Shown one piece after another: positions 9,475-42,521 of a stretch of 42,521 nucleotides of DNA. Made by a program: the position numbers and the translations under genes. A model generated the notes under the pieces. It saw only the letters and a program-made list of their open reading frames with translations, had not been told where the DNA came from and made no database searches. The DNA is from Phycisphaerae bacterium (lineage in GTDB: Bacteria > Planctomycetota > Phycisphaerae > Phycisphaerales > SM1A02): contig PBMX01000003.1 of NCBI GenBank assembly GCA_002722935.1, positions 9,612-52,132 on the forward strand. The letters run 5' to 3'. Position 1 is the stretch's first letter; each line of letters starts with the position of its first letter.

Positions 9475-10053
9475 ATGGCAAGACGCATTACCAGGGTGAA
9501 AGCGGTGGTACTTCTACTCCTACTCGGTGGCGTCTACCTTCTAATCGAAACAAAGGGGTGGTGGATCGTCATGCTGTGGGGCTGTCTGATACTTCTTGGG
9601 CTCCTTGCAATGCTCATTGCATATGGCTGGTTGAGGAAGAAATGGTGGTCCATTACGAGTTCTTCCGAATCGCTTCATGATCTCGATTCAATGAATGGTC
9701 GTCAGTTCGAGTCATGGATCTCCGATGTACTTCGAAGTCATGGGTTTGGTGTCTACGATACGCCTCATGCAGGAGACTTCGGAGTCGATGTATTGTGCTC
9801 CCCTCCGGGGACACGGGCGAGAATTGCCATCCAGGCCAAGAGGTACAAGGGCAATGTCGGCAACAAGGCTGTCCAGCAGGCCATTGCTGGAGCCCAGTTT
9901 CATGATTGCCAGCGATCTGCCGTCGTAACCCAATCGCACTTTACAAAAGCAGCCTGCATGCAGGCCCTGAAGGCGGACCCCCCCGTTCTGCTCGTCGACC
10001 GGGCACAAATAATGAAATTGCCTGAAATTCTTGCGGCATCTATCTCGTCATAG
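9475..10053 (+). CDS. Membrane-anchored Mrr_cat-type restriction endonuclease-like protein
   Basis: Two N-terminal TM helices, then MNGRQFESWISDVLRSHGFGVYDTPHAGDFGVDVLCSPPGTRARIAIQAKRYKGNVGNKAVQQ, i.e. the PD-(D/E)xK pattern GDFGVDV...QAK of Mrr-family nucleases. Confidence 0.85.
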   Translation: MARRITRVKAVVLLLLLGGVYLLIETKGWWIVMLWGCLILLGLLAMLIAYGWLRKKWWSITSSSESLHDLDSMNGRQFESWISDVLRSHGFGVYDTPHAGDFGVDVLCSPPGTRARIAIQAKRYKGNVGNKAVQQAIAGAQFHDCQRSAVVTQSHFTKAACMQALKADPPVLLVDRAQIMKLPEILAASISS

Positions 10054-10210: not shown

Positions 10211-10522
10211 ATGAAAGTCAGCCCAATGACGAAGGTTTCTACCTTTAAGACCAACTTCAAGGAAAATTTCGGCGTTGACATCAAGTGTCACAAGGGAATG
10301 TCCAAGGGGCACACCGCTGAAGACGAAGACAAGATGCACGAAATTTGCACAGGCATGGAAACTGACAGGGACTTCGATCTGGATATTCATGGAAACATGA
10401 ATGTGTCGACAGTGGAAAAGGAAGTTGCCGACAGCCTTGGTTTCCTGGTTCAGGTGTTGAATGCCGACGGCAGCAATGCTGATAACGACGCTACGCTTGG
10501 CGAAATTCGGGAACAGTACTGA
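10211..10522 (+). CDS. Small conserved-looking protein, tandem paralog 1 (two internal pseudo-repeats)
   Basis: Strong RBS taaggagg. VSTFKTNFKENFGVDIKCHKGMSKGH...; paralogous to the next ORF. Confidence 0.7.
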   Translation: MKVSPMTKVSTFKTNFKENFGVDIKCHKGMSKGHTAEDEDKMHEICTGMETDRDFDLDIHGNMNVSTVEKEVADSLGFLVQVLNADGSNADNDATLGEIREQY

Positions 10523-10944
10523 TGCGGGTATCACCACCAACAAAGGTCGGCACGTTCAAGTCCCGTTTCAGGGAAGAGTTCGGTGTCGACATCAAGTGTC
10601 ACAAGGGAATGTCCAAGGGCCATATTGCCGATGATGGCGACAAGCTCCATGAGATCTGCACGAAACAGGAAGTAGATCGTGACTTCGAACTGGACATTCA
10701 TGGAAACATGAAGGTCTCTACGGTTGAAGAGGAAGTCGCCCAGAGCATCGGCATCAGAGTGCAACTTCTCAACCCGGATGGCAGCAATGCAAGCAACAGC
10801 ATGACGCTTGGGGATCTTCGCAATGCCTATGAGGGTGGTACTGAGCCTGCACCTGCATCATCACCTTCACCCTCCGTGGCGAAGGCTGAGAATGCGGCAA
10901 AGAAGGGTTGCCTGATCGGACTCCTGATCGGACCATTCGTTTGA
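10522..10944 (+). CDS. Small protein, tandem paralog 2, with hydrophobic C-terminal tail
   Basis: TGATG overlap with the preceding ORF. VGTFKSRFREEFGVDIKCHKGMSKGH... Extra C-terminal linker and KKGCLIGLLIGPFV. Confidence 0.7.
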   Translation: MRVSPPTKVGTFKSRFREEFGVDIKCHKGMSKGHIADDGDKLHEICTKQEVDRDFELDIHGNMKVSTVEEEVAQSIGIRVQLLNPDGSNASNSMTLGDLRNAYEGGTEPAPASSPSPSVAKAENAAKKGCLIGLLIGPFV

Positions 10945-26639: not shown

Positions 26640-29432
26640 ATGAATCCAGTTCAGCGTGCAGGATTGTTCATCACGCTTGTCGCCAGCCTGCTGAGCATGC
26701 AGGCCCATGCGGCTGATCGTGCGCCTGCACGTGGTGCCACGGGCTGGACCATCGTGGAGAGTTTCAGCGTGCCGGAGGGCGCCTCGGGCCTGGCCTGGGA
26801 TGGAACGAGCCTGTACCTGGGCATCTATGGAGTCGATGGAGGCCACATCTACGGACTGGACCCGCAGACGGGTTCCTACTCGCTGCGTTTCATCGGGCAG
26901 CAGGAAGATGCCTTTGGCCTCTCCTACGACGGCCAGTACCTCTGGACCACCGACCACCCCGGTAGCAGTTCGACGCCCGCCCAGGCGTTGAAGCTCGATT
27001 GGAACGGCAACGTGATCGAGCAGATCGAGTTGCCTGATCACTACATGTCCGGCATCGCCTGCGATGGAGACGACATCTGGGTTTCACGCTACTACCCCGA
27101 CCCGGGCCACCTCTACAGGATCAACGCCGGGGGCGTCATCCTCGACGAGTTCGATGGGCCTGATGACCAGCCATGGGACCTGGCCATCGGCGAGGGCTGC
27201 ATCTGGATCGCTGACTACTGGGGCGACACGCTCTACAGCGTCGACCCGGTCACCGGAACCGTCCTCGACAGCCATGCGTCCGAGGGCGTCGATCCGGCCG
27301 GCATCGTCTGGGATGGCCAGTACCTCTGGTACTGCGACAACGGGGACAACTACGACTACGACATTCTCTACAAGGTCGATCTCCAGGGTGGCGGTACACC
27401 GGAGATCCTCATCGCCGACTCCGAGCATGACTTCGGGAGCGTGGCCATCGGTGATGTCGCTACGTGGAACGTGAACATCGCCAATACCGGCACGGCGAGC
27501 CTGGTCATCGACCAGTTGACCTTCAGTCAAGCAGTCGATGTCAGTTGCACGGCCACCTTCCCCGTCGTCGTACCCGTCGGCGGCAGCGAACAACTGCCCC
27601 TCGAGTACGCCCCGGGTTCCTTCGAGCCACTGCTCGTCACGGCGAATGTGCATTCCAATGACCCGATCCATCCCTCCCAGCCGCTGGTGCTCACCGGCCA
27701 TGGTGTCTACCCGGACCCGACGATCCACGTCGTGGAGGACTCGCACAACTTCGGCACGATCAGGGTCGGAGCGCATACGCGCTGGTTCATCGAGATCGCC
27801 AATCACGGCGCAGGCCCGCTGATCATCGATGGCGCCCAGCTCGACAGCGAGCACTTCTACATCGATCCGGGACTGGCGCTGCCCATCACCCTCGATACGC
27901 TCGAGGAGACCGTCATCGGCGTCTGGTTCAGTCCGACTTCGACCCAGTCCGTTACGGCAACGGCGCTCCTGTCATCGAATGACGGCAACCATGATCCTGC
28001 CGAACTCGACCTCCTTGGTAGCGCCATCGAGATCGACTATCCCATGGGTTCACACCTGTGGTCCTATCTGGTGGAGGGAAGCTGGGACAACACGCCCAAG
28101 GCCATGGCGCCCATCGCGGACATCACGGGCGACGGCAGATCCGACCTGGTGGTCTGTACTGAGGACAACTACATCCGGTGCTTCAACGGGAATGCACACT
28201 CCGGTGGCGACATCCTGTGGGAACACGAGATCTACAGCGGCAACATCTACTCGGACAAGGGCCTGGACGTCATCGCCGACGTGGATGGTGACGGGTTCGA
28301 GGACGTCGTGGTCGGTGCGACGGGGGGCGCACGGCTCATCAGGATGCTCTCGGGTCGAACCGGCGAGGAACGCTGGAGCTACGAAACGAATCAGGTCGGC
28401 AGCGGGGGCTGGGTCTACCAGGTCGATGGCAGCCGTGATTTCTCCGGTGACGGCATCGTCGACGTACTCGCCTGCGCCGGTGATGACGGCGAGGATGAAG
28501 GTCCCAAGCGTGCCTACTGCCTTGATGGCCTTGATGGCTCCCTGCTGTGGCAGCGTCCGTTGTTCGGTCCCGTGTTCTCGATCAGCGCGGTTGATGACTT
28601 CAATGGGGATGACGTACCTGACGCGGTGGCTGGCGCATCGGATGAATGGGAGACCCAGGGGCGTGCCGTGGGCATCGATGGAGCAACCGGGTTCGAGGAA
28701 TGGTCCTTCTACACCGGTGGTTCTTCCGTCTGGTCCGTGGTCCAGGTCGGGGACATCTCGCTTGATGGCATCAATGACGTCATGATCGGCGACTTCAGCA
28801 GCGGCGAGGTGTACGCCCTGGATGTGGTCGATGGAAGCCAGTTGTTCATCACCAGTGGCCTGGGAACCCTTACGGGTCTGAAGCGCATCGAGGATGTCAA
28901 TGGCGATGGTCATCCCGAGGTCGTGCCGGAACACTTCCAGGATCAGGTGCGCCTCATCAGCGGGGCCGACGGGTCCTACATCTGGTCGACGGCCGTAGCC
29001 GACAAGCCGACGGTTGCATCGGTGATTCCGGATGTCAGCGGGGATGGCATCAACGATCTGGTCGTCGACACCCTCTTCAGTGACAACTACACCTACTTCC
29101 TCGATGGGGCCGATGGTTCGATCCTGCAGAGCGCCAACTTCGGTACCCCGGTCGATTCCATCACCGTCCTGCCGGACATCGTCGGGGACGGTTCCTGGGA
29201 ACTCGTGGCCGGTGGTCGCAACGGGATGATCAAGTGCGTCTCGGGTGGTCTTGACGCCCTGGTCCTCCATCCCGCCGACATCAACGAGGACGGCTATGTG
29301 AATGTCGACGACCTGCTGCTGGTCATAAGCCAGTGGGGGATGACCGGCTCATCTGCGGACATCAGTGGTGACGGCATCGTCGGTGTCGATGACCTGCTGA
29401 TGGTCATCGCCGGGTGGGGGCACGGAACCTGA
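26640..29432 (+). CDS. Large secreted protein: beta-propeller-like N-term, choice-of-anchor-D/ASH-like repeats, FG-GAP/VCBS repeats, C-terminal dockerin-like module
   Basis: Signal MNPVQRAGLFITLVASLLSMQAHAA. DFGSVAIGDVATWNVNIANTGTASLVI and NFGTIRVGAHTRWFIEIANHGAGPLII. DVDGDGFEDVVVGA/DFNGDDVPDAVAGA/DVNGDGHPEVVPE. DINEDGYVNVDDLLLVISQWG...DISGDGIVGVDDLLMVIAGWG. Upstream start at 26616 also possible. Confidence 0.85.
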   Translation: MNPVQRAGLFITLVASLLSMQAHAADRAPARGATGWTIVESFSVPEGASGLAWDGTSLYLGIYGVDGGHIYGLDPQTGSYSLRFIGQQEDAFGLSYDGQYLWTTDHPGSSSTPAQALKLDWNGNVIEQIELPDHYMSGIACDGDDIWVSRYYPDPGHLYRINAGGVILDEFDGPDDQPWDLAIGEGCIWIADYWGDTLYSVDPVTGTVLDSHASEGVDPAGIVWDGQYLWYCDNGDNYDYDILYKVDLQGGGTPEILIADSEHDFGSVAIGDVATWNVNIANTGTASLVIDQLTFSQAVDVSCTATFPVVVPVGGSEQLPLEYAPGSFEPLLVTANVHSNDPIHPSQPLVLTGHGVYPDPTIHVVEDSHNFGTIRVGAHTRWFIEIANHGAGPLIIDGAQLDSEHFYIDPGLALPITLDTLEETVIGVWFSPTSTQSVTATALLSSNDGNHDPAELDLLGSAIEIDYPMGSHLWSYLVEGSWDNTPKAMAPIADITGDGRSDLVVCTEDNYIRCFNGNAHSGGDILWEHEIYSGNIYSDKGLDVIADVDGDGFEDVVVGATGGARLIRMLSGRTGEERWSYETNQVGSGGWVYQVDGSRDFSGDGIVDVLACAGDDGEDEGPKRAYCLDGLDGSLLWQRPLFGPVFSISAVDDFNGDDVPDAVAGASDEWETQGRAVGIDGATGFEEWSFYTGGSSVWSVVQVGDISLDGINDVMIGDFSSGEVYALDVVDGSQLFITSGLGTLTGLKRIEDVNGDGHPEVVPEHFQDQVRLISGADGSYIWSTAVADKPTVASVIPDVSGDGINDLVVDTLFSDNYTYFLDGADGSILQSANFGTPVDSITVLPDIVGDGSWELVAGGRNGMIKCVSGGLDALVLHPADINEDGYVNVDDLLLVISQWGMTGSSADISGDGIVGVDDLLMVIAGWGHGT

Positions 29433-29448
29433 GCAGGTCGATCTGGTT

Positions 29449-30645
29449 CTACCGGGACGATTCTTCGATGGCCATCGATTCCAGGACCACCTGGTGGAAC
29501 TCGTTGTTCATGTCCATGTTGAAGGGGAACTGCTGGGTCGCGAAGACCGCGGTGAGATCCTGTTCCGGATCGATGAAGAAGTACGTGCAGGCGGCGCCGC
29601 CCCAGGACCAGCGTCCTTCGCCAAGGGGGCCCATCCGTGAGTCGACCGCCGGCTGGATTCCGAACCCGAGTCCAAAGCGCTGTCTCGGGCCCTTCTTCGT
29701 GCCGGGGCCCAGTTGATTCTGCGTCATGAAGGTGACGGTTCGTGTCTCGAGGATGCGATTGCCATCGAGTTCACCCAACTGCTCCATGGCCCTGCAGAAA
29801 CGCGTGTAGTCACCGATGGTCGACCAGAGTCCGCCACCGCCGGACTGGAAGGCGGGCTTGAGAATCTTCGTACCGCCCTCGTAGTGATTCGCATCGACCA
29901 CAAGTGATCCCTCGTCGGGTGTGACGATGTGCATCAACTCGATATCCGCGTCGGGCGTGAACCCGGTGTCATCCATGCCCAGTGGAGTGAAGATGTTCTC
30001 CTGCAGGTAGACCTCGAATTCCTTCCCCGAGACCACCTCGACGACGCGTCCGAGTACATCCGTATTGAGCCCGTAGACGAAGGCCTGGCCTGGATGGGAG
30101 GCGAGGGGCATCCGCGACATGACGACGGCGGTTTCCTCGAGACTTGTGACATCGGCCATCTTGTCCTTGTAGTGGGGGACCAGTTCGGGTGGCGCGCTGA
30201 AGTCGTAGGCCAGGCCGCTGGTATGGGTCAGGAGGTCGCGGATGGTGACGGGCCTGCGTGGGGCCACGAGTTGACCATCGACGGATACCTTCGTCTCCTT
30301 GAACTCGGGGATGTACTTGGAGACGGGATCATCGAGATCCAATTTTCCCTGTTCGACCAGTTGCATGATGGCGGTCGAGGTGACGGCCTTGCTCATCGAG
30401 TAGATGCGGATGACCTGGTCGGTCTCGAGATCCTCCTCTGAACCTGGTGTTCGATCACCGACGGCTTCCAGGAAGATGGTCTCCCCGTCGCGGGTCACCT
30501 GGACCATGCAGCCCACGACCTTGCCCGACTCGACGAGAGAGTTCATCCAGTCCATCAATGGCTTGAGTTGTGCGGCCGATGCCGCCGAGGAAATCAGCAG
30601 GCCAAGAAGCAGCATCATCGTGAGATTGCGTGTTTTGTTGTTCAT
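29449..30645 (-). CDS. Serine hydrolase, beta-lactamase family (class C/esterase-like)
   Basis: RIYSMSKAVTSTAIMQLVEQGKLDLDDPVSKYIPEF (SxxK), TIRDLLTHTSGLAYDF, FVYGLNTDVLGRVVEVVSG (YxN). Confidence 0.93.
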   Translation of the reverse strand: MNNKTRNLTMMLLLGLLISSAASAAQLKPLMDWMNSLVESGKVVGCMVQVTRDGETIFLEAVGDRTPGSEEDLETDQVIRIYSMSKAVTSTAIMQLVEQGKLDLDDPVSKYIPEFKETKVSVDGQLVAPRRPVTIRDLLTHTSGLAYDFSAPPELVPHYKDKMADVTSLEETAVVMSRMPLASHPGQAFVYGLNTDVLGRVVEVVSGKEFEVYLQENIFTPLGMDDTGFTPDADIELMHIVTPDEGSLVVDANHYEGGTKILKPAFQSGGGGLWSTIGDYTRFCRAMEQLGELDGNRILETRTVTFMTQNQLGPGTKKGPRQRFGLGFGIQPAVDSRMGPLGEGRWSWGGAACTYFFIDPEQDLTAVFATQQFPFNMDMNNEFHQVVLESMAIEESSR

Positions 30646-32041: not shown

Positions 32042-33064
32042 TCAGGACTCGCCTGCCTCGACCTTCACGGGAATCCACTCCAGGTCGGTCACCACGGCGC
32101 CGTGGTCCGAGGGAAATGATCGTTCACGAACTGGAATCGAGTCGTCCTCCCATGGCATGGGAAGGACGTGCGCCGAGATGGGGCGCAGTGTCCAGCCCTC
32201 GCCGCCCCGAGCCGGGTTCTTCAGGTAGAGCCGGTCGATGCGCTCGTAGGACTGGGGCGTGCCGGTTTCACCGGGCCGTGGTCCACGGAACATGGGTGAC
32301 CAGGTGATCCCCGGGTACTGCACCGCATCGGGATGCAGCATCCGGAAGGTGTCCATGAAACCCGCTTCATGCATGGCCATGCTCACCGGCAGGGGCAGGG
32401 CGCGGCGGTGGGTGTAGACGCGGGCCGTGTCCACCGTCCAGTCCAGGTGCGAAGGGCAGTTCCAGTCGCCACCGACGAGCAGGGGGACCTTCGCGTCCAG
32501 TTGTCCGGCATCACGCAGGTGCGCGATGATTGCCGTGGCCTGTTTGAGCCGGTTGGAACGCTCGGTTTCGGCAGCCAGGAGCAACTCGTCGCTCATGTCG
32601 GGGTTGTCACGCAGTTCGTAGCCGACGAACGCCCGGTAGTCGATCCAGATGCTCCAGGCCAGCAACTCCCGTTGCTGTGAATCCTTCAGCAGTGCACCCA
32701 CTCCATGCCACTCGTGGTGGAAGAAGGTGGTTTCCAGTTCAAGTGGCGTCAGGACGCACAGGTGCGTGCTCCGGTCCTGGTGCTGGTTCCAGCCAAGTTC
32801 GCCTGCCAGCCATTCCCCGAGGCGGGGTCGATCTCCATCGATGTCGTAGCTTTCCTGGAGCAGCACGATGTCGGGTTCGACGCTGCGGATGATCGCCAAT
32901 GCCTTCTCCGGCCCCTCGTCGACGTCATTGGCACCATGGAGCACGTTCCAGACAAGGACTCTCAGCCTGTTTTCGTCAGGATCCTGTTCATGGGCGGCAT
33001 CGCCGGGATGAATGCACAGCGCGAGGGTTGCAATGATCAGGATGGCGATGGAACGCGGTCTCAT
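32042..33064 (-). CDS. Secreted endonuclease/exonuclease/phosphatase-family protein
   Basis: Signal peptide. LRVLVWNVLHGANDVDEG, DIVLLQESYDIDGDRP, VPLLVGGDWNCPSHLDW, RIDRLYLKN, FPSDHGAVVTDLEW. Confidence 0.88.
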   Translation of the reverse strand: MRPRSIAILIIATLALCIHPGDAAHEQDPDENRLRVLVWNVLHGANDVDEGPEKALAIIRSVEPDIVLLQESYDIDGDRPRLGEWLAGELGWNQHQDRSTHLCVLTPLELETTFFHHEWHGVGALLKDSQQRELLAWSIWIDYRAFVGYELRDNPDMSDELLLAAETERSNRLKQATAIIAHLRDAGQLDAKVPLLVGGDWNCPSHLDWTVDTARVYTHRRALPLPVSMAMHEAGFMDTFRMLHPDAVQYPGITWSPMFRGPRPGETGTPQSYERIDRLYLKNPARGGEGWTLRPISAHVLPMPWEDDSIPVRERSFPSDHGAVVTDLEWIPVKVEAGES

Positions 33065-33138
33065 GACGTGAACAAGGATACCGTTCTCCCGTATCGCCTG
33101 CGTTGCCCGATCTACCTATCATGCCTGCAGGTAACCAC

Positions 33139-33480: not shown

Positions 33481-33519
33481 GTTCAACGTCGACTTGTAGA
33501 GTTCAGACTTCGGATCGTG

Positions 33520-33822
33520 CTACGAAACGCCGGTCACGCTGGAGGGCCCAGCAAGAAGTTCGAAGTCGGTGATGGAGATGTTGACGAAGGCGGGATTCTC
33601 ACCGAGGGACTTGAAGAGCTCGGACTCCCTGTAGTCGAGCATCGCCTGGCGGTCGTTGAAGAGGTAGACGCCGCCGTAGGTGTTCGTCTCCTCGTTGGCC
33701 AGCCACTTCTTGGAGACCAGCCCGGGGATGGCGGCGAAGGCACCGGAGACTTCGTCGCAGACCGCCTCGTAGTCGGGGCGAGCGAGATTCTCAAGATTGA
33801 AGTTGATGATCAGGATGTGCAT
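33520..33822 (-). CDS. YdhR-like mono-oxygenase/ABM-fold protein
   Basis: MHILIINFNLENLARPDYEAVCDEVSGAFAAIPGLVSKKWLANEETNTYGGVYLFNDRQAMLDYRESELFKSL matches the YdhR pattern. Starts immediately after the STAND gene's stop codon (TGA/ATG, 0 nt gap). Confidence 0.8.
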   Translation of the reverse strand: MHILIINFNLENLARPDYEAVCDEVSGAFAAIPGLVSKKWLANEETNTYGGVYLFNDRQAMLDYRESELFKSLGENPAFVNISITDFELLAGPSSVTGVS

Positions 33823-36800
33823 TCAGTGCTCCTGCAAATGCGTATTTCCGGTGAACGGAGTCAACAGGGTTCGAATCTCACCGCTTGATTCAGAAGGCAG
33901 TACGTCGCCTTCAATCAGTGCAAGGACCGATTCGGCGACCATCGTATCCACGCAGTCTTTCGATATCGCGTCACGGATCAGCTGGACGAGAAGCATGCCC
34001 GAGGAGCCTTCTGCTGCTTCAACCCTTGCCAATCCTTCCAGGGCGAATTTGAGAGCGACCGTGGCTCTCGATCTGGTGGCCAGAAGTGCGCTCTCCTCGT
34101 AGTAGCGCCTCGCCTCGTCGAGCAGTCGGGCCTGCTCATCCTTGTTTCCTGCGCTCCGGCCCTCATCGAGCGAAATACCGCCGAGCATGCTCGTCATGCG
34201 CATGATCCCACCGAGGTCGCCGGTCTCCCGGGAGATCGAGAGGTTCTGCCCGTACGATTCCCTGGCCTGCTCGATCCGGCCCGATGCCATGTGGACGTCC
34301 CCGAGCCCTCCATGTCCGATCGCTTCACCCTTTCGGTCGGATACGCCCGGGCTTCGATTCAGGTCGATGGCCTGTTTGAAGAGAGTTTCAGCTCCCTGCG
34401 CGTCACCGGCATGATGCAGCCTCGACATCCCAAGGGAGTTGCAGATCTCGCTCTGCAGGAGGAGCATTTCGTGGCGGGTTTTCTGGTCAGGGGTTTGCTC
34501 TGCTGCCGCGGTCGTTTCCGCGTACAACTGCTCGAGTGCCTCGTGCTTCTCGCCCGCCTGTGTTCGCGGGTCCATGCAGAGCGCCTTGATGAAACGTCCA
34601 CGAGCGGCCATCCAGGGTGGGGATGCCTGGTCTTCGACGAGTGACTGCACCGCCATGTCCGCTTCTTCGAACCGGCGTTGCTTGTACATCGCAAGGCCTC
34701 TCAGGATCGCGATTCGGTATCGCGTCGTCGATTCCGGATCCGTCAGGGCATCGAGGATGTCTTCCGCCTGCGAGAGTGAATCCAGGGCTGTATCAGGCTG
34801 TTCCTCGGCATCGAGAACGAGCTGGGCATGCATCGTGAGCAGGCCGATCCGTTTCTCACCAGGGATGGCGAGGTCGCTTCGATCCCGTGTCAGGTCGATC
34901 GCTGGCTTCAACTCGCGAAGCGCTCGGCCGTAGAGCCGTCGCTGCTCACATCGTCCAGCTGCCATGCATGACCATCGAATCGTCTCCATCGGCATGCGCT
35001 CGGAAACCATCGAAGCATGCCTTGCGATCGAGAGAACTTCCGTGAACGGAATCGCCGACTCATCCGCGTACTTCGCATCGAGTTCAGCGGCTCGAACCTG
35101 GACGAATCTCATGTGATACTCACGGGCCATCTGCTGAACCTCGGCCGGGTTCCGGCCAGGCTCCGATCTGAACGCTCCTGCAATGCGCTTGTCACGGAAT
35201 TCGAAGATGTCATCGGCCTCCACGCGATCGATGACGATCCCTCGCAGTTCCGCTTCCTTCAGCAGGGAAAGCAGCTCGATGACGTCTATGTTGAAGATCC
35301 TGGCCACGAGCGAGACCTGGAAAGAGCGTCCGATCACGGCGCAGCAGTGGAGAATGTCGAGCAACCGGCGATCGAGTCCATCGAGCTCGTTAGCAACCAT
35401 GTCCTTGAACTCGCTGCCGGGGGTAATCGATGCCAGGGATGTCGACGGGTCGAGGTCGATCCGTCCATCGATCATCTTCAAGGCATGCTGTTCAAGGGCG
35501 ATCTTCATGAACTCGAGTCGATGCAATGGGAGTTCAAGTCCCTTGAGTTCCATTTCACGGGTGATGACTCGGCGGGCGCGTTCAGTGCAGCGAAGCGTTT
35601 CAAGAAGCCGGGTACGCCACTCGGTCGAGTTCTCTTCTGTTCCCAGCACCTCATGGATCGGCTCCGGCCTCAGGAGGTTTACCACGCCTCGCTGCGAGAG
35701 TTCCTCGAGTTTCTCCAGCGTGATGGCGGCCTGATCCGGTTCATCCTCGCTGCCCGGGGAATGGTCGCTTCGGCAGGTGATCAGAATGCAGACTCGATTC
35801 CGCATGTCAGGTTCGCCGGAGACGAAACGATCTACGAGCCGTTCCAGGAGAATGTTCAGGACCCGAAGCGAATCATCGTCGATCCACTGGATGTCATCCA
35901 GGATCAGGACGACTCGCCTGCCGCCGGGCTGATCTCCCGAGGGCATGACGTAATGGCCGAGCACCTCGGCCATCTCGTCGGCGATCATGCCCTCGTTTGC
36001 CGAGACGAACTTTTCGTCATCACTTCCAGCGAGATCCAGTGCCACCGAGATCGCCGAGCCGGCAATGGACGCGTTCGAGGCAACTTTGGAGAGTCCCTCC
36101 TGCATGCGGCGGGCATTTTCCGCGGGATTGCTGAATCGATGAACCCCCATGAGCTCGCCGAAGGCCTGTCGAAGGGGTTCGTAGGGAATATCCGCCTCGG
36201 GATCGCCGGGTTCATTGCAATCCCCGAAGAGGACGATGGTGTCCCCGCCGAGAGCACTGCCAGCGACTTCAAGCCGGATTCGTTCACCAAGTTCACGCGC
36301 TGTCCGTGTCTTGCCACACCCGTGACTGCCCTCAAGCCAGGCGATCTCGATGGCGTCGTCGGAAGCTCCTTCGCCGAGAATGCCCTCGAGCAGACTCCCG
36401 AGAAGGCTCGATGATGCGGCCGTATCGACGTATGGCGGATCCCGAAGCAGTTCGGATTCACTTGTTTCGAGCTCAGCGTCTTCCTCGACGGTATTCCCCC
36501 TGTCCAGGCCGCCTTTGAGGACGAGGGTCCCGAGGTAGGCGGCCGGCGGAATGCAGCCTGCGGCGATCGAATTGGTCCACGTGCCCCGAACCTCGAGGAT
36601 CGAGGCGATGGTTACTCCAAGGAGCCCGGCAACCATGGCGGCCATGTCCCAGTGGCTGCCTGTGCGGTTCCAGGCACACCATGATCGTGACACCCCGACG
36701 AGCGTAATGAGGCCGAGGATCGCCGGCAGGCTGAAGATCGCCACGGCGTGTCCCAGGCCGCTGATCGGTCCGGCGTGCAATACGAGATTCACCTGTGCTC

Positions 36801-38085
36801 CAAACCAACTTCCGGCAAGCAGGATCGCCACCATGTCCGAGTTGCCCAGCCGGGTGGCGATGGCGTTGAACCTGGTGGCGGTCACGTACACCAGGAGCAT
36901 CGGCAGCACTGTCAATGCAATGGAACTCCCCATGATCCAGGCGATTGAAATCGAGGTGGGGTGCAGCATCTCGAGGTCGGGCGTGGCCAGGCGCAGGCCC
37001 GCTTGCGCCATCGTGGAAAAGGCGAATCCACCGATGATCGCGACGACCATGGTCCAGGCCGGGGGCGTGGGGGCATGCAGGAGTACAGCGTGGTCGAGCG
37101 TGGTGGTGCGGAGCGAGCGCACGATCAGCGGATGCAGTCCAACGCCCAGCAGCAGGATCAGGTAGACCAGGGCCTCGAGGAATCCGACATCCTGCGCAAA
37201 ACCGTCGACGTACCATTGACGGCCGGGCTCGATCCGATCCTGCTTCGACCCTCCATCCGGAATCGCCGTCGGCCACAACTGGTAGTAGCCTCCGAGGTAA
37301 TAAAGTTCATCGACGGTATCGTTGTGCTTGATGGTAAGCACGCCGATCTTCTCGATTTCCAGGTCGACTGAACTCATCTGCCCTGCAAGTTCACGCAATG
37401 CCTCGGGGTCCGGAGGATTCTGCCTCAATTTCTGAAGCAGGTCCGCCCCCAGGCTCGCCGCCAGTTCCCTGTCGGAGATCGCGTAGTACGGCTTGTTGTT
37501 GTTGATGTAGACGTGCACGGCATCCCGTGCGGCACCACCAAATTCCTCTTGAAGCGGCCCGAGTTCCGTCTGGACGACCATGTACGGTAGGTCGTTCTCC
37601 ATGTGGATCCTGGTATCGCCGTGCAGGATCGAGGCCGCGATCCGTTCCGAGGCCACCTCGACGGGCTCGTCGTACCACTCGTAGATCTCGTCCTGGCCGA
37701 AGAGCAGTCCGTAGTACGGGGACCAGGCTCCAAGCTGCTCTGATCGCTCATCGAGCATTGTTGCCAGTTGCTCGTGCCCCTCCCTGATCTGCAGGGCCTG
37801 CCCCCCGGGGGGCGATTGCATCGATGACAGGTCCTCGATGCTGAATCCAAGTTCTCCTGCAGCGCCTTCATAGAAATCCAGGGCCCTTTGCACCTCCGTG
37901 AGGCTCCAGGGCCGCGCACGGCTTACCCAGTACATGGTGTTGGCATGTTCCAGGTGCTCGGCGGCGCGTTCCTCGTTCGTTGATGCGATCGCAGGGCTGA
38001 TTCCCGCTGCTTGAATCGACAAGGGAATGGCTGCAAGGATGGCCATTCGAACCAGGAGGGAGCGACAAGTCGAGTAGAGGGTCAC
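33823..38085 (-). CDS. Transmembrane STAND-type ATPase: signal peptide, extracytoplasmic domain, ~7 TM helices, AAA/STAND NTPase, TPR-like C-term
   Basis: GTG start. Walker A WLEGSHGCGKTRTARELG, Walker B RRVVLILDDIQWIDDDSLRVLNILL. Seven hydrophobic segments from FLEALVYLILLLGVGLHPLIV to SIAAGCIPPAAYLGTLVL. C-terminal helical repeats (AQGAETLFKQAIDLNRSPG, RIEQARESYGQNLSISRETGD). Confidence 0.8.
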   Translation of the reverse strand: MTLYSTCRSLLVRMAILAAIPLSIQAAGISPAIASTNEERAAEHLEHANTMYWVSRARPWSLTEVQRALDFYEGAAGELGFSIEDLSSMQSPPGGQALQIREGHEQLATMLDERSEQLGAWSPYYGLLFGQDEIYEWYDEPVEVASERIAASILHGDTRIHMENDLPYMVVQTELGPLQEEFGGAARDAVHVYINNNKPYYAISDRELAASLGADLLQKLRQNPPDPEALRELAGQMSSVDLEIEKIGVLTIKHNDTVDELYYLGGYYQLWPTAIPDGGSKQDRIEPGRQWYVDGFAQDVGFLEALVYLILLLGVGLHPLIVRSLRTTTLDHAVLLHAPTPPAWTMVVAIIGGFAFSTMAQAGLRLATPDLEMLHPTSISIAWIMGSSIALTVLPMLLVYVTATRFNAIATRLGNSDMVAILLAGSWFGAQVNLVLHAGPISGLGHAVAIFSLPAILGLITLVGVSRSWCAWNRTGSHWDMAAMVAGLLGVTIASILEVRGTWTNSIAAGCIPPAAYLGTLVLKGGLDRGNTVEEDAELETSESELLRDPPYVDTAASSSLLGSLLEGILGEGASDDAIEIAWLEGSHGCGKTRTARELGERIRLEVAGSALGGDTIVLFGDCNEPGDPEADIPYEPLRQAFGELMGVHRFSNPAENARRMQEGLSKVASNASIAGSAISVALDLAGSDDEKFVSANEGMIADEMAEVLGHYVMPSGDQPGGRRVVLILDDIQWIDDDSLRVLNILLERLVDRFVSGEPDMRNRVCILITCRSDHSPGSEDEPDQAAITLEKLEELSQRGVVNLLRPEPIHEVLGTEENSTEWRTRLLETLRCTERARRVITREMELKGLELPLHRLEFMKIALEQHALKMIDGRIDLDPSTSLASITPGSEFKDMVANELDGLDRRLLDILHCCAVIGRSFQVSLVARIFNIDVIELLSLLKEAELRGIVIDRVEADDIFEFRDKRIAGAFRSEPGRNPAEVQQMAREYHMRFVQVRAAELDAKYADESAIPFTEVLSIARHASMVSERMPMETIRWSCMAAGRCEQRRLYGRALRELKPAIDLTRDRSDLAIPGEKRIGLLTMHAQLVLDAEEQPDTALDSLSQAEDILDALTDPESTTRYRIAILRGLAMYKQRRFEEADMAVQSLVEDQASPPWMAARGRFIKALCMDPRTQAGEKHEALEQLYAETTAAAEQTPDQKTRHEMLLLQSEICNSLGMSRLHHAGDAQGAETLFKQAIDLNRSPGVSDRKGEAIGHGGLGDVHMASGRIEQARESYGQNLSISRETGDLGGIMRMTSMLGGISLDEGRSAGNKDEQARLLDEARRYYEESALLATRSRATVALKFALEGLARVEAAEGSSGMLLVQLIRDAISKDCVDTMVAESVLALIEGDVLPSESSGEIRTLLTPFTGNTHLQEH

Positions 38086-41000
38086 GGAGTACCCGCCAGC
38101 AGTGCGTCCCTATACGCCGGGTGGATGTCGATTCCATCCGGCAGGCTGCCGGAAACCACCAGAGGGGAGACCTTGTTGTATCGCCTGGTCCAACTGATGA
38201 GGCGATTGATCGACAGTTGGATTTTCTTACCCTCTTCTCCAGCTTCCGCCCTGAGGTCCGGGATGGTCCGTGCCCCATTCTCGAGCATCTTCAGCAGCCG
38301 CTGGAGCCCCGGTTCGCAGAGGTGTACCTTCTCGAGAATGGCGTCGAGGGCGAATGCAGGCCACGCGGGAACGAGGGTGGAGCGGGAAGCGGCGATGACC
38401 CCGTCGATCCATTGATTGAACAGGTCACGGTCGATCGTCTCGCTGTCGACACGGAACATGCTGTCAAGCCTGATTGCATCGGGAACCTTCTCGGGCTTGC
38501 CCCAGTTCGCGGGATCCAGTTCCATTGAAGATGCGATCGGCAGGTCCGGGTCCATCCCTTCGTACCAGTTCAACCAGAGTTCCCCAGCGCCACCCCCGGT
38601 CTTGATCCTTCCCATGGAGGTGCTGGGCGAGCCGGTTGCAGCGGACTCGGTGAGCATGAAGAATTCGAGACTCCCGCGTATCGCCGCGGCGGTCGTATGC
38701 GCCATGCGCAGCCCGATGCGCGCCTCGAAGAGGTCCTCGAGGCGATGATCGAGCCAGTTGTTCCCGTCATCCCCTCGACTGAGCATCGGGATCTCGGCCT
38801 TCCCCTTGCCGTGGGTGGCCGTCTCGGTCTTGTCGGCATCTCGGGCGAAGGACATCCGGGCGATCTCGATGAGCTGGCTCGCGGCAGCGTCGATCACGTC
38901 ATCGTCCTCCGGGGACTTCCACTCGATCTCGCAGCCGAGCCAGTAGGAGTCGCGGGTGGCGGGTTCAGGGAAACCGGGTTTCTTCGCCAGGGACCGGTAG
39001 AAACGGGTTTCCGGCCAGCGGCCCTCCGCATGCTGGGCCTGCACCCATTTGACGCCGCCCTTGGACATGCCGGGAGCACCGCTCTTGACGTTCACGATGA
39101 GGGTGTAGCGGGTCGGATCCTTCTCGGCCTGGAAGACCCAGGCGCAGCAACGGTAGGCTCCACTCGGGTCGGCGATGTCCTGGAGGCACTGGTTGTTCTT
39201 GACCTGGTCCGGGACCATGATCTCGTATCGTTGCCAGCGATGGACGCTTCGGCCTCCGATCGCAAGCGCGAACGTCGAGGCGACGGATTCCCAGGGCCTG
39301 TACTGCTTTTCGATGCGATTGAGGCACCTGCCCACCCATCCCTTGATGAACGGAAGGCCGAACTTCGAATCTCGACGAATGTCCTCCCAGGCGAGGCAGG
39401 TATCGAGTGTTCCATTCACGACCCTGTTGGTTGCGTAGATGCCCAGACCTTCGTCGCGTGATCGGAACGGTGCGCCCTCACCCCCCGGGATGTCGAATGA
39501 GTGAAGGAAGATTCTTCCCTCGCCGCTTTCCGTGAAGTCGATCGCGAAGAAGGGAATGTCACCATTGACGAAGGAGAGGACGTTTCGCTGCCCACGTTCC
39601 TTGTGGTACTTCGCCTGCCACTTCGTCTCGGTGAAGACCTGTTCCCTGACCTGGATGCCCTTTTCGCGGGCGACACCGTTGACCGCATCACGAACGATCT
39701 CGATGATCGCATCGGTTTCCGCCGCCGCGCGAAGCGATTCGCGCTCCGAATCATCCGGCAACTGCTCCTTGAGTCCCTCGAGCATCGATGCAATAAGGAT
39801 CTCCTCGCTGTCCGTGATCTGCAGGTCGCTTACGACCTCACGGACGGCGAAGCGAAACTGCCGTCGCTTGTTGCTCTTGACGAGGAATCGATATTCCTCG
39901 CTGCACTCGGTCGCGTGGCGCCTGCCCGAGAGATCCTTGTAGACCACGTCGCATATTCGCACCTGGTAGATGCCCGGCTTCCGGGCACGGATGGACCACC
40001 GCATCCTCCGGGATTCCCCCGGTGCGAGATTCACAAGGACATGCTCCGGACCGTCGAGGACCTGGAGCCCTTCGGGCACGAGGATGTAGGTTTCGACGTC
40101 CGTTGCCCGGCCAAGTCCGATGTTGTGAAGGATGACTTCGAATTCGAAGCGATCACCGATCTCGATCTCCTGTTCTCCAGCGGAGGGGTGAAGAAGGCGG
40201 TGTACATTCACGATTGGAATCAGTGCGTCGTCGGAGTTGGGATCGATGACCTGCGTCGTCGGCCCGTCCACTTCGATGGTTCCACTGTCCTCGGCGGCGT
40301 CCGCCGACTCCGTTCCGCGGTACTGGAACGTGATGGTCGCAGGTGGGATGTTCTCCGCCCCCTGGGCCACAGCTTCCACCTTGAAGATCGCCGAGTGCTT
40401 CGATCCCGTTTCCATTGAAGGCCACTCGACCTCGATCCGACGTTCATCGACGAGTTCTCCCTGCTCCTGCTCGGGCATGAACCGGAGGGTCGAAGGCAGG
40501 TTGGTCACGGCTGACAGTGATTCCAGGGTGGTGCTGTCACGTTGATTGTTCAGCGTCATGGTGAGCTCGGCAGGCACACCATCTCCCACGGTCATCTCGA
40601 GGCTTGAAAGTTCCAGAGACGCCTCGATGTTCGGGGTGATCAGTTCAGCGGACTTGAAGAGGCGTTCGAAGAGTTGCCGCCGGGCTGGAAGGTTGACGCC
40701 GTGGTTCACGAGCCATTTGGAAACGTCGATCGTCGAGGTGCCCGCGATGCTCAGGAAGCCGAGCATGTTGGAGTTCTTCTTGATCTCCTTCGAGTACAGG
40801 GAGAGCTCCGTATTCTGCTCGCCGTCGATGGGCGCGACGATGGCCAGTGGCAGGAGGCGTATGAGCGACGTTCGTTTTCCGTTGAGCAGGACCGGCTCGC
40901 TGACGGGAATCATGATGCCGGGAGTCTTGACCTCGATGGGTGTCGTTCCACCCGCGACGTACCGTGTCCCGAAGTAGCACTGCTCCGTGCCGTTGATCTC

Positions 41001-41567
41001 GAAGCGATCGAATTGGGCCAGTTGCCATTCCTCGAGGAAGCCCAGCCTGGAAATGACGTCGTCGAGCATTTTCCGACGTTCATCGAGCTCATCCTCGAGT
41101 TTCTCCACCGAGATGATCGGGCCATGGGCGTCATGGTTCCGCCGTGTGACGAGTTCGTCGATCGCCTTCTTTGCCCCCGGGTAGACTGCAAGAGCTTCCG
41201 GGAGGGTGGATTTCAGGCCATGCTTCTTCGTGAACTCGGCCAGTGTTCGCAGGAGGGCGACCCATTTGCCCAGCGACATCTGTTCCATGCCGACCCGGTG
41301 CAGTTCGGCAAGGGTTTCGTTCGCCTTCTCCGAAGTGATGGCGGCAAGAAAATCATCCTTCGTTTCTTCGGATTTCGCTTCCTCCGCCTCCTCCTCGAGG
41401 CCGGCAACGAGATCGAGCAGGTCACCGACGGCGATGGCGCCGAGGAGGCTGAGCGTGTTCTCCAGCGCGATCCGGAGCATGTCCTTTCGCTGGGGGTTCC
41501 CCGGAGTGGCCATGGCCAGAGGCGAGGCGATAGGGCTGGGCAGGTAGGAGAGAGGGTCTGCAGTCAT
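38082..41567 (-). CDS. Large cytoplasmic protein with N-terminal HEPN-like motif, CARDB/ASH-like beta-sandwiches and uncharacterised C-terminal domains
   Basis: Start at MTADPLSYLPSPIASPLAMATPG; no signal peptide. KKAIDELVTRRNHDAHGPIISVEKLEDELDERRKMLDD (RX4H). IEIGDRFEFEVILHNIGLGRATDVETYILVPEGLQVLDGPEHVLVNLAPGESRRMRWSIRARKPGIYQVRI. GTGA overlap with the STAND gene. Confidence 0.75.
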   Translation of the reverse strand: MTADPLSYLPSPIASPLAMATPGNPQRKDMLRIALENTLSLLGAIAVGDLLDLVAGLEEEAEEAKSEETKDDFLAAITSEKANETLAELHRVGMEQMSLGKWVALLRTLAEFTKKHGLKSTLPEALAVYPGAKKAIDELVTRRNHDAHGPIISVEKLEDELDERRKMLDDVISRLGFLEEWQLAQFDRFEINGTEQCYFGTRYVAGGTTPIEVKTPGIMIPVSEPVLLNGKRTSLIRLLPLAIVAPIDGEQNTELSLYSKEIKKNSNMLGFLSIAGTSTIDVSKWLVNHGVNLPARRQLFERLFKSAELITPNIEASLELSSLEMTVGDGVPAELTMTLNNQRDSTTLESLSAVTNLPSTLRFMPEQEQGELVDERRIEVEWPSMETGSKHSAIFKVEAVAQGAENIPPATITFQYRGTESADAAEDSGTIEVDGPTTQVIDPNSDDALIPIVNVHRLLHPSAGEQEIEIGDRFEFEVILHNIGLGRATDVETYILVPEGLQVLDGPEHVLVNLAPGESRRMRWSIRARKPGIYQVRICDVVYKDLSGRRHATECSEEYRFLVKSNKRRQFRFAVREVVSDLQITDSEEILIASMLEGLKEQLPDDSERESLRAAAETDAIIEIVRDAVNGVAREKGIQVREQVFTETKWQAKYHKERGQRNVLSFVNGDIPFFAIDFTESGEGRIFLHSFDIPGGEGAPFRSRDEGLGIYATNRVVNGTLDTCLAWEDIRRDSKFGLPFIKGWVGRCLNRIEKQYRPWESVASTFALAIGGRSVHRWQRYEIMVPDQVKNNQCLQDIADPSGAYRCCAWVFQAEKDPTRYTLIVNVKSGAPGMSKGGVKWVQAQHAEGRWPETRFYRSLAKKPGFPEPATRDSYWLGCEIEWKSPEDDDVIDAAASQLIEIARMSFARDADKTETATHGKGKAEIPMLSRGDDGNNWLDHRLEDLFEARIGLRMAHTTAAAIRGSLEFFMLTESAATGSPSTSMGRIKTGGGAGELWLNWYEGMDPDLPIASSMELDPANWGKPEKVPDAIRLDSMFRVDSETIDRDLFNQWIDGVIAASRSTLVPAWPAFALDAILEKVHLCEPGLQRLLKMLENGARTIPDLRAEAGEEGKKIQLSINRLISWTRRYNKVSPLVVSGSLPDGIDIHPAYRDALLAGTP

Positions 41568-41742
41568 CCGTGGTTCCAATCGTAGGCCACACCGGCATCT
41601 CCGCTTGATCTCTGACCGGACAGGATAACCCGAAATACGGGTTCGTTCAGGAGACCGCATGGTGTTCCTGATCCGGGCAGCAGGCCTGGTCGATGCGTGA
41701 CGCATCAAAACGGACCCTGCACGCCGATCCAGGTCCACCTGG

Positions 41743-41757
41743 CTCGACCCGGTCGAG
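41743..41757. promoter_or_regulatory. Short palindrome (possible operator) upstream of the HEPN/STAND operon
   Basis: CTCGACC c GGTCGAG, read directly, in the 41568-41801 intergenic gap. Confidence 0.25.
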
Positions 41758-41801
41758 GCTCAAGGCCTTCAGTTCCCCCTCGATATGGTCGGGCCGTGGC
41801 T

Positions 41802-42278
41802 TCAGGCAGGGGTGACGATCACGATTTCGTCCCTCGTGTACTCGTCATCTTCTTCAACCTGGTAGCGAAGGTACGTGGCACCATTGAACGCCCCACGAGG
41901 GTTGCCGAACTCACCGAACTCCGAGTCGAGCGGTTCGATGTAATTCGCCTGATCCCCGGTTCCATGGATGAAGTGGGTCCAGGCCGTCTCGAGTACCTGG
42001 TTGGGCGCGTGCCCGGGAAACAAGCCAACGAAACCCTGGAGTGGTTCCAGGATTCGCGAGCAGACTTCGGACCAGGTCTCCAGGTCGATCGATCGAGGAT
42101 CGTCGATGACGGCTTCAAGGGCCGCTTCACTCTCGAGGCAGGAAATGTCCCCCGACTCGCTGCAAATGAACAAGGTGAACTCCAGGCCGCCGAAGCTTCC
42201 GGGGTCCCCGCACTCGATTCGCTCCTCCTGGCAGTCCTTCGGAACGAGGCCGATCGTCAGTATGTGTTTCATGCTCAT
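41802..42278 (-). CDS. Hypothetical acidic cytoplasmic protein
   Basis: Start MSMKHILTIGLVPKDCQEERIECGDPGSFGGLEFTLF; continues to DEIVIVTPA. Confidence 0.6.
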   Translation of the reverse strand: MSMKHILTIGLVPKDCQEERIECGDPGSFGGLEFTLFICSESGDISCLESEAALEAVIDDPRSIDLETWSEVCSRILEPLQGFVGLFPGHAPNQVLETAWTHFIHGTGDQANYIEPLDSEFGEFGNPRGAFNGATYLRYQVEEDDEYTRDEIVIVTPA

Positions 42279-42408
42279 GGTCCGTGGCTCCCGCCTGGCG
42301 ATCGATGCGAATCCACTTGCGGCCGGGAGTCGCATTCGGTCATCCTACAGATACCCGGTGGCCTTGATGATCAGGGTATGATCATGTTTCAAGTTGATGA
42401 CCTTATCA

Positions 42409-42521
42409 ATGAAGTCGCACCTTACACAACGCGCCCGGTTGAACATTCCAATGAGCCGCCGGGCATTCCTCAATACCGCGACGGCCGCGTCCCTGACGCT
42501 GGCACTGCCGCGGCTCTCGGC
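42409..42521 (+). CDS. Tat-signal (twin-arginine) secreted protein, 5' fragment running off the right edge
   Basis: Hand-read open frame MKSHLTQRARLNIPMSRRAFLNTATAASLTLALPRLSA (start at 42409 or 42451); SRRAFL twin-arginine motif plus hydrophobic stretch. Confidence 0.65.
   Translation, partial: MKSHLTQRARLNIPMSRRAFLNTATAASLTLALPRLS

Follow-up and report, generated by a model that had tools for sequence, protein, structure and literature searches.

The window, that is, the whole stretch of 42,521 nucleotides analyzed here from a Phycisphaerae bacterium, carries two giant genes joined by a GTGA at positions 38082 to 38085, in which the GTG start codon of gene 2 overlaps the stop codon of gene 1 (Table 1). 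An upstream GTG at position 41738 would extend gene 1 to 1218 amino acids; the start of the homologue in genome G433 coincides with the ATG of the shorter version. Because both genes are conserved in other genera (43 to 72% identity for gene 1 and 25 to 64% for gene 2), they are more than chance open reading frames. The junction reads ATGA in G429/L008 and GTGA in G423/L021, and a 39-bp gap takes its place in G433. The two giant genes and their overlap, as described in an earlier note on this DNA, are therefore confirmed. Gene 3 starts without a gap where gene 2 stops (33822/33823); it is more than a chance reading frame because it belongs to the YdhR family (PF08803; E = 7.5e-17, above the cut-off), in agreement with the same note.

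Table 1. Features of the gene pair and its immediate surroundings, in window coordinates
Feature	Residues	Coordinates	Strand	Basis or remark
Gene 1	1161 aa from ATG	38082..41567	minus	N-terminal HEPN region (predicted), two beta-sandwich segments, C-terminal half without a family
HEPN region of gene 1 (predicted)	1-190	40998..41567	minus	Sub-threshold Pfam HEPN_Swt1/HEPN_RiboL-PSP matches and profile-profile match
RX4H motif RNHDAH	143-148	about 41124-41141	minus	Motif in gene 1
Beta-sandwich pair of gene 1 (DUF11/BatD/CARDB-like)	about 311-565	39873..40637	minus	Pfam, see homologues
C-terminal half of gene 1	about 566-1161	38082..39872	minus	No database match
Gene 2	1420 aa	33823..38085	minus	STAND protein with a membrane region; starts with GTG
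Exported N-terminal domain of gene 2	about 30-304	37174..37998	minus	Hydropathy, after signal peptide
Membrane region of gene 2	about 304-530	36496..37176	minus	Hydropathy, six or seven helices
AAA_16 STAND NTPase of gene 2 and the stretch after it	about 560-1000	35086..36408	minus	Pfam, motifs
TPR region of gene 2	about 1001-1420	33826..35085	minus	Pfam; PDB TPR chains by profile
Gene 3 (YdhR-like)	100 aa	33520..33822	minus	Conserved flank of the cassette, not a system member
Protein with no family assigned	177 aa	41802..42335	minus	Inside the same cassette as genes 1 and 2

Sequence comparisons support the assignment of the N-terminal region of gene 1 as a HEPN domain, as the earlier note had suggested. 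The conserved signature of HEPN domains is RX4-6H with a polar residue following the arginine (PMC3710099). Such a motif is present in all four gene 1 proteins as RNHDAH or RNQDAH, invariant except for its third position, and as RNKFAH in the more distant partners described below. For every HEPN-region sequence tested, the top Pfam match was a HEPN family, always below threshold, and no Pfam HEPN model reaches its curated cut-off for the gene 1 region. In a profile-profile comparison with 16 HEPN_Swt1 domains (PF18731), the HEPN region scored 30.1 (E = 2e-4), while the best of 60 shuffles scored 19.2. Residues 1 to 190 are predicted to form an all-helical bundle (pLDDT 73.7, pTM 0.70), with which Foldseek returned no significant match of any kind from the PDB or a viral library; a model of the whole of gene 1, built from a two-sequence alignment, has a pLDDT of 31.6. 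Among 219 genomes of the class, a search with the HEPN region retrieved only the window itself and one weak partial match.

The beta-sandwich segments that had been read from the gene 1 sequence give DUF11/BatD matches that are sub-threshold in the window protein and above the Pfam cut-off in its homologues, and the second segment is the best-conserved part of gene 1 (60 to 85% identity). Sandwiches of the DUF11/CARDB type are usually extracytoplasmic; gene 1 has no signal peptide. Its C-terminal half, with over 500 residues and good conservation, matched nothing in Pfam, NCBIfam, or PDB sequences, and a PDB sequence search with gene 1 gave no match.

From its N terminus, the gene 2 protein comprises a signal peptide followed by a predicted exported domain, a membrane region of about seven predicted helices, and then the STAND (AAA_16) NTPase and the TPRs. 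The exported domain has no Pfam match; a CsgG/FlgO-like identity was considered by eye and found no support. Seven membrane helices are plausible, in line with the "7TM" of the earlier note, in that seven strong hydropathy segments follow the signal peptide in the G429 homologue, but only six do so in the window protein. The AAA_16 match (E = 1.7e-11) and the TPR_2 match (E = 2.6e-6) both exceed their cut-offs, TPR_12 matches weakly, and the gene 2 profile matches TPR chains in the PDB. With a P-loop NTPase core containing Walker A (GSHGCGKT) and Walker B (LILDD) motifs and with C-terminal superstructure repeats, gene 2 shows two hallmarks of STAND proteins and was rightly classified as a STAND NTPase with TPRs. 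Both Walker motifs are retained in all gene 2 homologues that pair with a HEPN giant.

Gene 1 was found in 4 of 181 genomes of the family, each from a different genus, and gene 2 (E < 1e-20) in exactly the same four; the genes are adjacent in all of them and missing from most relatives. Identical four-genome sets would arise by chance with a probability of 2.3e-8, a value uncorrected for kinship. Homologues that are rarely neighbors would have refuted the proposed partnership, as the earlier note pointed out; in all four genomes they are neighbors. In addition, two genomes from another, distant family in the phylum (G531 and G797) encode an end-to-end homologue of gene 2 (hhalign E = 1e-36). 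It is located downstream of a giant of 1296 or 1326 amino acids, which it overlaps or follows within 9 bp. This giant begins with a HEPN-like domain (VSYRNKFAH; E = 0.00027 to 0.001 for HEPN_RiboL-PSP) and has weak NACHT/STAND matches and strong TPRs, and this partner (P0010/P0012) resembles a HEPN-NACHT-TPR fusion. The occurrence of a membrane STAND protein beside such a giant in two distant genomes indicates that HEPN giants and membrane STAND proteins are paired repeatedly, with an exchange of what else the partner contains. In G169, two homologues of gene 2 lie in tandem. The Walker A motif of one of them is broken (GAGTT), and no HEPN giant was found beside the two; thus, gene 2 can have other partners.

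The genes form an accessory cassette, because in a congener (G382) the same flanks enclose other genes: YdhR on one side and the flanking gene on the far side are both kept, genes 1 and 2 are absent, and 3.9 kb of unrelated genes stand where the window has 8.6 kb with the pair. It is hardly credible that the YdhR-like monooxygenase belongs to the system as the third gene of an operon. The zero-gap stop/start junction speaks for it, but in G382 YdhR adjoins an endonuclease/phosphatase-family gene in the absence of the pair, the YdhR of L008 is part of a fusion with a beta-lactamase-fold protein, encoded about 1.8 kb downstream of gene 2, and no YdhR homologue was found in the examined G433 and G423 sequence. 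We therefore rejected YdhR as a third component and regard it as flanking backbone; the three-gene unit of the earlier note stands in its coordinates, overlap, and junction but not in the membership of gene 3. It is also very unlikely that the adjacency of genes 1 and 2 is an inherited genome order of functionally unlinked genes. Although all four strict pairs belong to one bacterial family, the stop/start overlap is present in three of the four, the presence/absence sets are identical across the 181 genomes, identities go down to 25 to 43% with largely different flanking genes, and an independent HEPN pairing exists in another family. Genes 1 and 2 are probably a two-part sensing and response system, which has no name yet.

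Our preferred explanation, which we hold at slightly less than an even chance, is that an envelope sensor uses ATP to switch on a predicted HEPN RNase in an immune-like or stress response. The exported N-terminal domain of gene 2 would read the state of the envelope through a putative ligand, and the signal would be carried inward by the predicted membrane helices to the cytoplasmic STAND NTPase and its TPR sensor or scaffold, which may be off when bound to ADP and on, in assembled form, when bound to ATP. Gene 1 would be the cytoplasmic partner, synthesized in step with gene 2 by means of the stop/start overlap. Assembly of the NTPase could then gather gene 1 molecules and bring their HEPN domains together for RNA cleavage, which, by analogy with STAND/HEPN conflict systems, might lead to growth arrest or death. 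Counting against this explanation are the sub-threshold HEPN matches, the Foldseek result, the beta-sandwiches in a protein with no signal peptide, the G169 tandem, and the outcome of the defense searches: PADLOC (PADLOC-DB 2023) named no system, its sole matches being generic TPR models for gene 2, with no model matching gene 1, and a plasmid search for homologues gave no match. There is also no defense island around the pair, the neighbors are mostly metabolic or envelope genes, and the alternative cassette in G382, as read from its sequence, likewise holds genes of other kinds. The signal-transduction or defense module of the earlier note is supported in part, by the STAND/HEPN adjacency and co-occurrence; defense itself is a candidate role.

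Alternatively, the pair may be a non-immune regulator of envelope stress or lifestyle, in which gene 2 would sense the envelope and gene 1 would either target particular RNAs or serve as a scaffold, without killing the cell. We consider this possible but rather unlikely: an exported sensor-like domain with membrane helices would suit such a role, as would the metabolic and envelope character of the neighbors and of the alternative cassette in G382 and the absence of a defense island, whereas the patchy, cassette-like distribution and the swapping of partners are more typical of conflict systems. A less probable alternative is that the helical domain of gene 1, whether a HEPN without catalytic activity or a mere look-alike, serves protein contacts alone, the effector being the C-terminal half. 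The sub-threshold Pfam matches, the Foldseek result, and the size and conservation of that unmatched half are consistent with this idea; however, the RX4H motif is conserved in each of the four gene 1 proteins as well as the distant HEPN-NACHT partner, and the profile match lies far above the shuffled controls.

The bNACHT and Avs proteins are STAND defense proteins, and to our knowledge the characterized bacterial ones are cytoplasmic sensors of phage proteins. N-terminal HEPN domains fused to STAND NTPases have been reported in bacteria (PMC3710099). Like these fusions and bNACHT/Avs, the gene pair combines HEPN with a STAND NTPase that carries repeats at its C terminus; in contrast to them, (i) HEPN and the conserved STAND are split over two coupled proteins, (ii) the STAND protein is predicted to be membrane anchored with an exported N-terminal domain, and (iii) gene 1 has beta-sandwiches and an unmatched C-terminal half in place of an NTPase. 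According to the available parts of two reports, operons of multicellular bacteria, planctomycetes included, combine STAND NTPases with toxin-like effectors (PMC7159879, PMC8195603); those parts contain no membrane-receptor STAND protein with a HEPN beta-sandwich giant. Ava_2192-type and Swt1-like HEPN proteins (PF18731) offer the closest HEPN profile to gene 1, but the match is sub-threshold and confined to the RX4H hairpin, and the domain companions differ. Gene 2 resembles 7TMR-DISM receptors in its predicted layout, with a sensor domain outside, some six or seven membrane helices, and a signaling module inside; however, it contains no Pfam membrane or extracellular domain of 7TMR-DISM, and the module inside the cell consists of a STAND NTPase and TPRs, for which we know of no precedent among these receptors. 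A STAND NTPase that is part of a multi-pass membrane receptor, is made together with a HEPN giant, and is found again with a different HEPN-headed partner in a distant family would imply that a switch of this type can read the cell surface, with the effector role passed to a separate protein. Tentatively, such receptors might form a planctomycete-lineage family of transmembrane envelope-sensing STAND proteins that work with any of several exchangeable partners headed by HEPN (HEPN-beta-sandwich and HEPN-NACHT-TPR giants) and turn an outside signal into RNA cleavage. They would then be an analogue of NLR immune proteins of receptor type, split between two proteins. The gene pair offers a testable sensor-effector pair with clear putative active-site residues and a defined accessory slot.

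As judged by reading its sequence, the alternative cassette in G382 encodes a FAD-dependent-oxidoreductase-like protein and small lipoprotein-like proteins, with no defense genes. Mrr-like and small tandem proteins adjoin gene 1 elsewhere; we do not claim a larger system with them because in the window they lie at a distance of 27 kb, and because the small proteins exist as well in two genomes in which the gene pair was not found. No homologue of the 177-amino-acid protein was found in the examined G433 and G423 sequence, and in L008 a homologue (50%) is located upstream of gene 1.

Gene 1, encoding a giant predicted to be cytoplasmic, and gene 2, encoding a membrane STAND NTPase, form a pair that recurs across genera. 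In the window, the three minus-strand open reading frames described in the earlier note were borne out in their coordinates, in the GTGA overlap, and in the junction between gene 2 and the YdhR-like gene 3. The source genome is 1.4 Mb in size and 65% complete, and the window reaches the end of contig C3 at 42521.

In the bacterial family, 181 genomes were searched: four carry gene 1, namely the window's own genome (G000), G423, G429, and G433, and gene 2 occupies the identical four. In the neighbourhood check that the note proposed, the homologues lie side by side in 4/4 carriers, overlapping in G000, G429, and G423 and separated by 39 bp in G433; in G423, gene 1 is broken across two contigs, and gene 2 adjoins the C-terminal piece. 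The chance of identical sets (4 in 181) is 2.3e-8, assuming independent presence and ignoring kinship. The carriers represent four genera, and the lowest identities among them are 43% for gene 1 and 25% for gene 2. No further gene 1 was seen in 299 genomes of the class, save partial beta-sandwich matches; G169 also carries gene 2, as two tandem homologues that likewise overlap by GTGA.

Features of the window and of compared loci (G, genome; L, locus)
Feature	Position	Strand	Details
Gene 1	window 38082-41567	minus	1161 aa
Gene 2	window 33823-38085	minus	1420 aa; GTG start; GTGA overlap with gene 1 stop
Gene 3 (YdhR)	window 33520-33822	minus	100 aa; begins right after gene 2 stop
Cassette slot	window 33823-42417		8.6 kb
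G382 match	window 26786-30612		84%
G382 match	window 32068-33066		88%
G382 match, YdhR	window 33518-33832		87%
G382 match, start of metallophosphoesterase-like gene	window 42452-42521		83%
G382 slot	L063:5754-9665		3.9 kb
YdhR fusion protein (G429)	L008:17447-18976
Counterpart of fusion protein	window 29449-30645
Tandem gene 2 homologues (G169)	L009:6237-14404
Mrr-type nuclease gene	window 9475-10053		two membrane helices
Small tandem proteins	window 10211-10522, 10522-10944		paralogous
Small tandem proteins (G423)	L024:2431-5463
Small tandem proteins (G328)	L041:1312-4274
Small-protein domain (G303)	L042:4106-5238

YdhR had been read as a member of the operon, which a comparison of the window with one contig of the same-genus genome G382 contradicts. 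Between YdhR and a metallophosphoesterase-like gene, the window holds genes 2 and 1 and a 177-aa gene, whereas the same slot in G382 holds unrelated DNA, which reads by sequence as a gene for a 617-aa protein resembling an FAD-dependent oxidoreductase, together with three small genes for lipoprotein-like products. Because G382 keeps both flanks with different content between them, the pair moved as one block, by gain, loss, or exchange, and YdhR belongs to the backbone. In G429, a beta-lactamase-fold protein carries YdhR as its C-terminal domain; the counterpart of this protein in the window is separate from YdhR.

Gene 2 matches AAA_16 (1.7e-11) and TPRs in Pfam, in agreement with its earlier assignment. 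Hydropathy indicates a signal peptide followed by an exported domain, acidic and some 270 residues long (zero Pfam matches), and then multiple membrane segments before the NTPase, although the proposed number of seven applies to the G429 homologue and six strong segments were counted in the window. All gene 2 homologues retain both Walker motifs, A and B, the sole exception being the second tandem member in G169 (GAGTT), which lacks the Walker A lysine.

In library searches, the whole gene 1 protein gave only weak DUF11/BatD matches, which exceed the cut-off in relatives; sequence searches with its C-terminal half found no matches. For the N-terminal 190 residues of four gene 1 proteins, the top Pfam match was HEPN_Swt1 or HEPN_RiboL-PSP, each below the cut-off. 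Compared with 16 genuine PF18731 (HEPN_Swt1) domains, the gene 1 profile scored 30.1 (E, 2e-4), and the alignment pairs RN..AH with RN..AH; the reversed profile reached 19.4, and the best of 60 column shuffles 19.2. The predicted structure is all-helical, with the motif closing a long helix, but Foldseek returned zero significant matches with this model. Thus, the HEPN assignment of the earlier note stands on sequence profiles rather than on structure.

A phylum-wide search identified homologues of gene 2 in two genomes of a different family, G531 and G797; the one in G531 can be aligned with the gene 2 profile over its full length (E, 1e-36). In both genomes, a giant of 1296/1326 aa is encoded directly upstream on the same strand; it has an N-terminal HEPN_RiboL-PSP match (0.001 and 0.00027; motif RNKFAH), behind which come weak matches to STAND/AAA_16 and then strong TPRs. 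Its HEPN profile scored 21.4 against the PF18731 set (16.3 in shuffles), again with RN..AH paired. Because direct comparison with the gene 1 HEPN region gave a weak match, common descent of the two regions is only suggested. An order-wide search around G531 gave no additional cases, and since G531 and G797 belong to one genus, they count as one independent recurrence.

The pair's parts and logic are already known: a HEPN survey predicted RX4-6H to be catalytic and reported HEPN-STAND fusions (PMC3710099), and a STAND survey describes STAND-effector operons, with planctomycetes among the carriers (PMC8195603). In the parts of the open-licence literature consulted, we found no description of a membrane-receptor STAND and a HEPN beta-sandwich giant as separate proteins, nor of swapping of HEPN-headed partners. 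Beside the observed anatomy, overlap, co-occurrence, recurrence, conserved motifs, and cassette, a mechanism may be proposed in which gene 2, with the predicted membrane topology, would sense a ligand outside, nucleotide would drive its assembly, and the gene 1 HEPN domain would be activated through dimerisation to cleave RNA. The biological role of the pair is likewise presumptive. For the defence role proposed earlier, PADLOC named no system, the neighbours tested matched generic domains only (the Mrr catalytic domain and protein kinase), and a plasmid search with gene 1 gave no match; an immune reading is therefore no more than suggested by the parts (HEPN plus STAND), partner swapping, and patchy presence.

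Elsewhere in the window, where G+C is low (0.51 versus 0.60), small tandem proteins follow an Mrr-type nuclease gene. In three further loci with the pair, homologues of the small proteins lie directly upstream of gene 1; among 80 family genomes, they occur in 3/3 pair carriers and in two genomes in which no pair was found. They adjoin a CASTOR/POLLUX-type ion channel gene (Pfam) in G423 and a gene resembling it in G328, and in G303 the small-protein domain occurs in two copies, one behind membrane helices.
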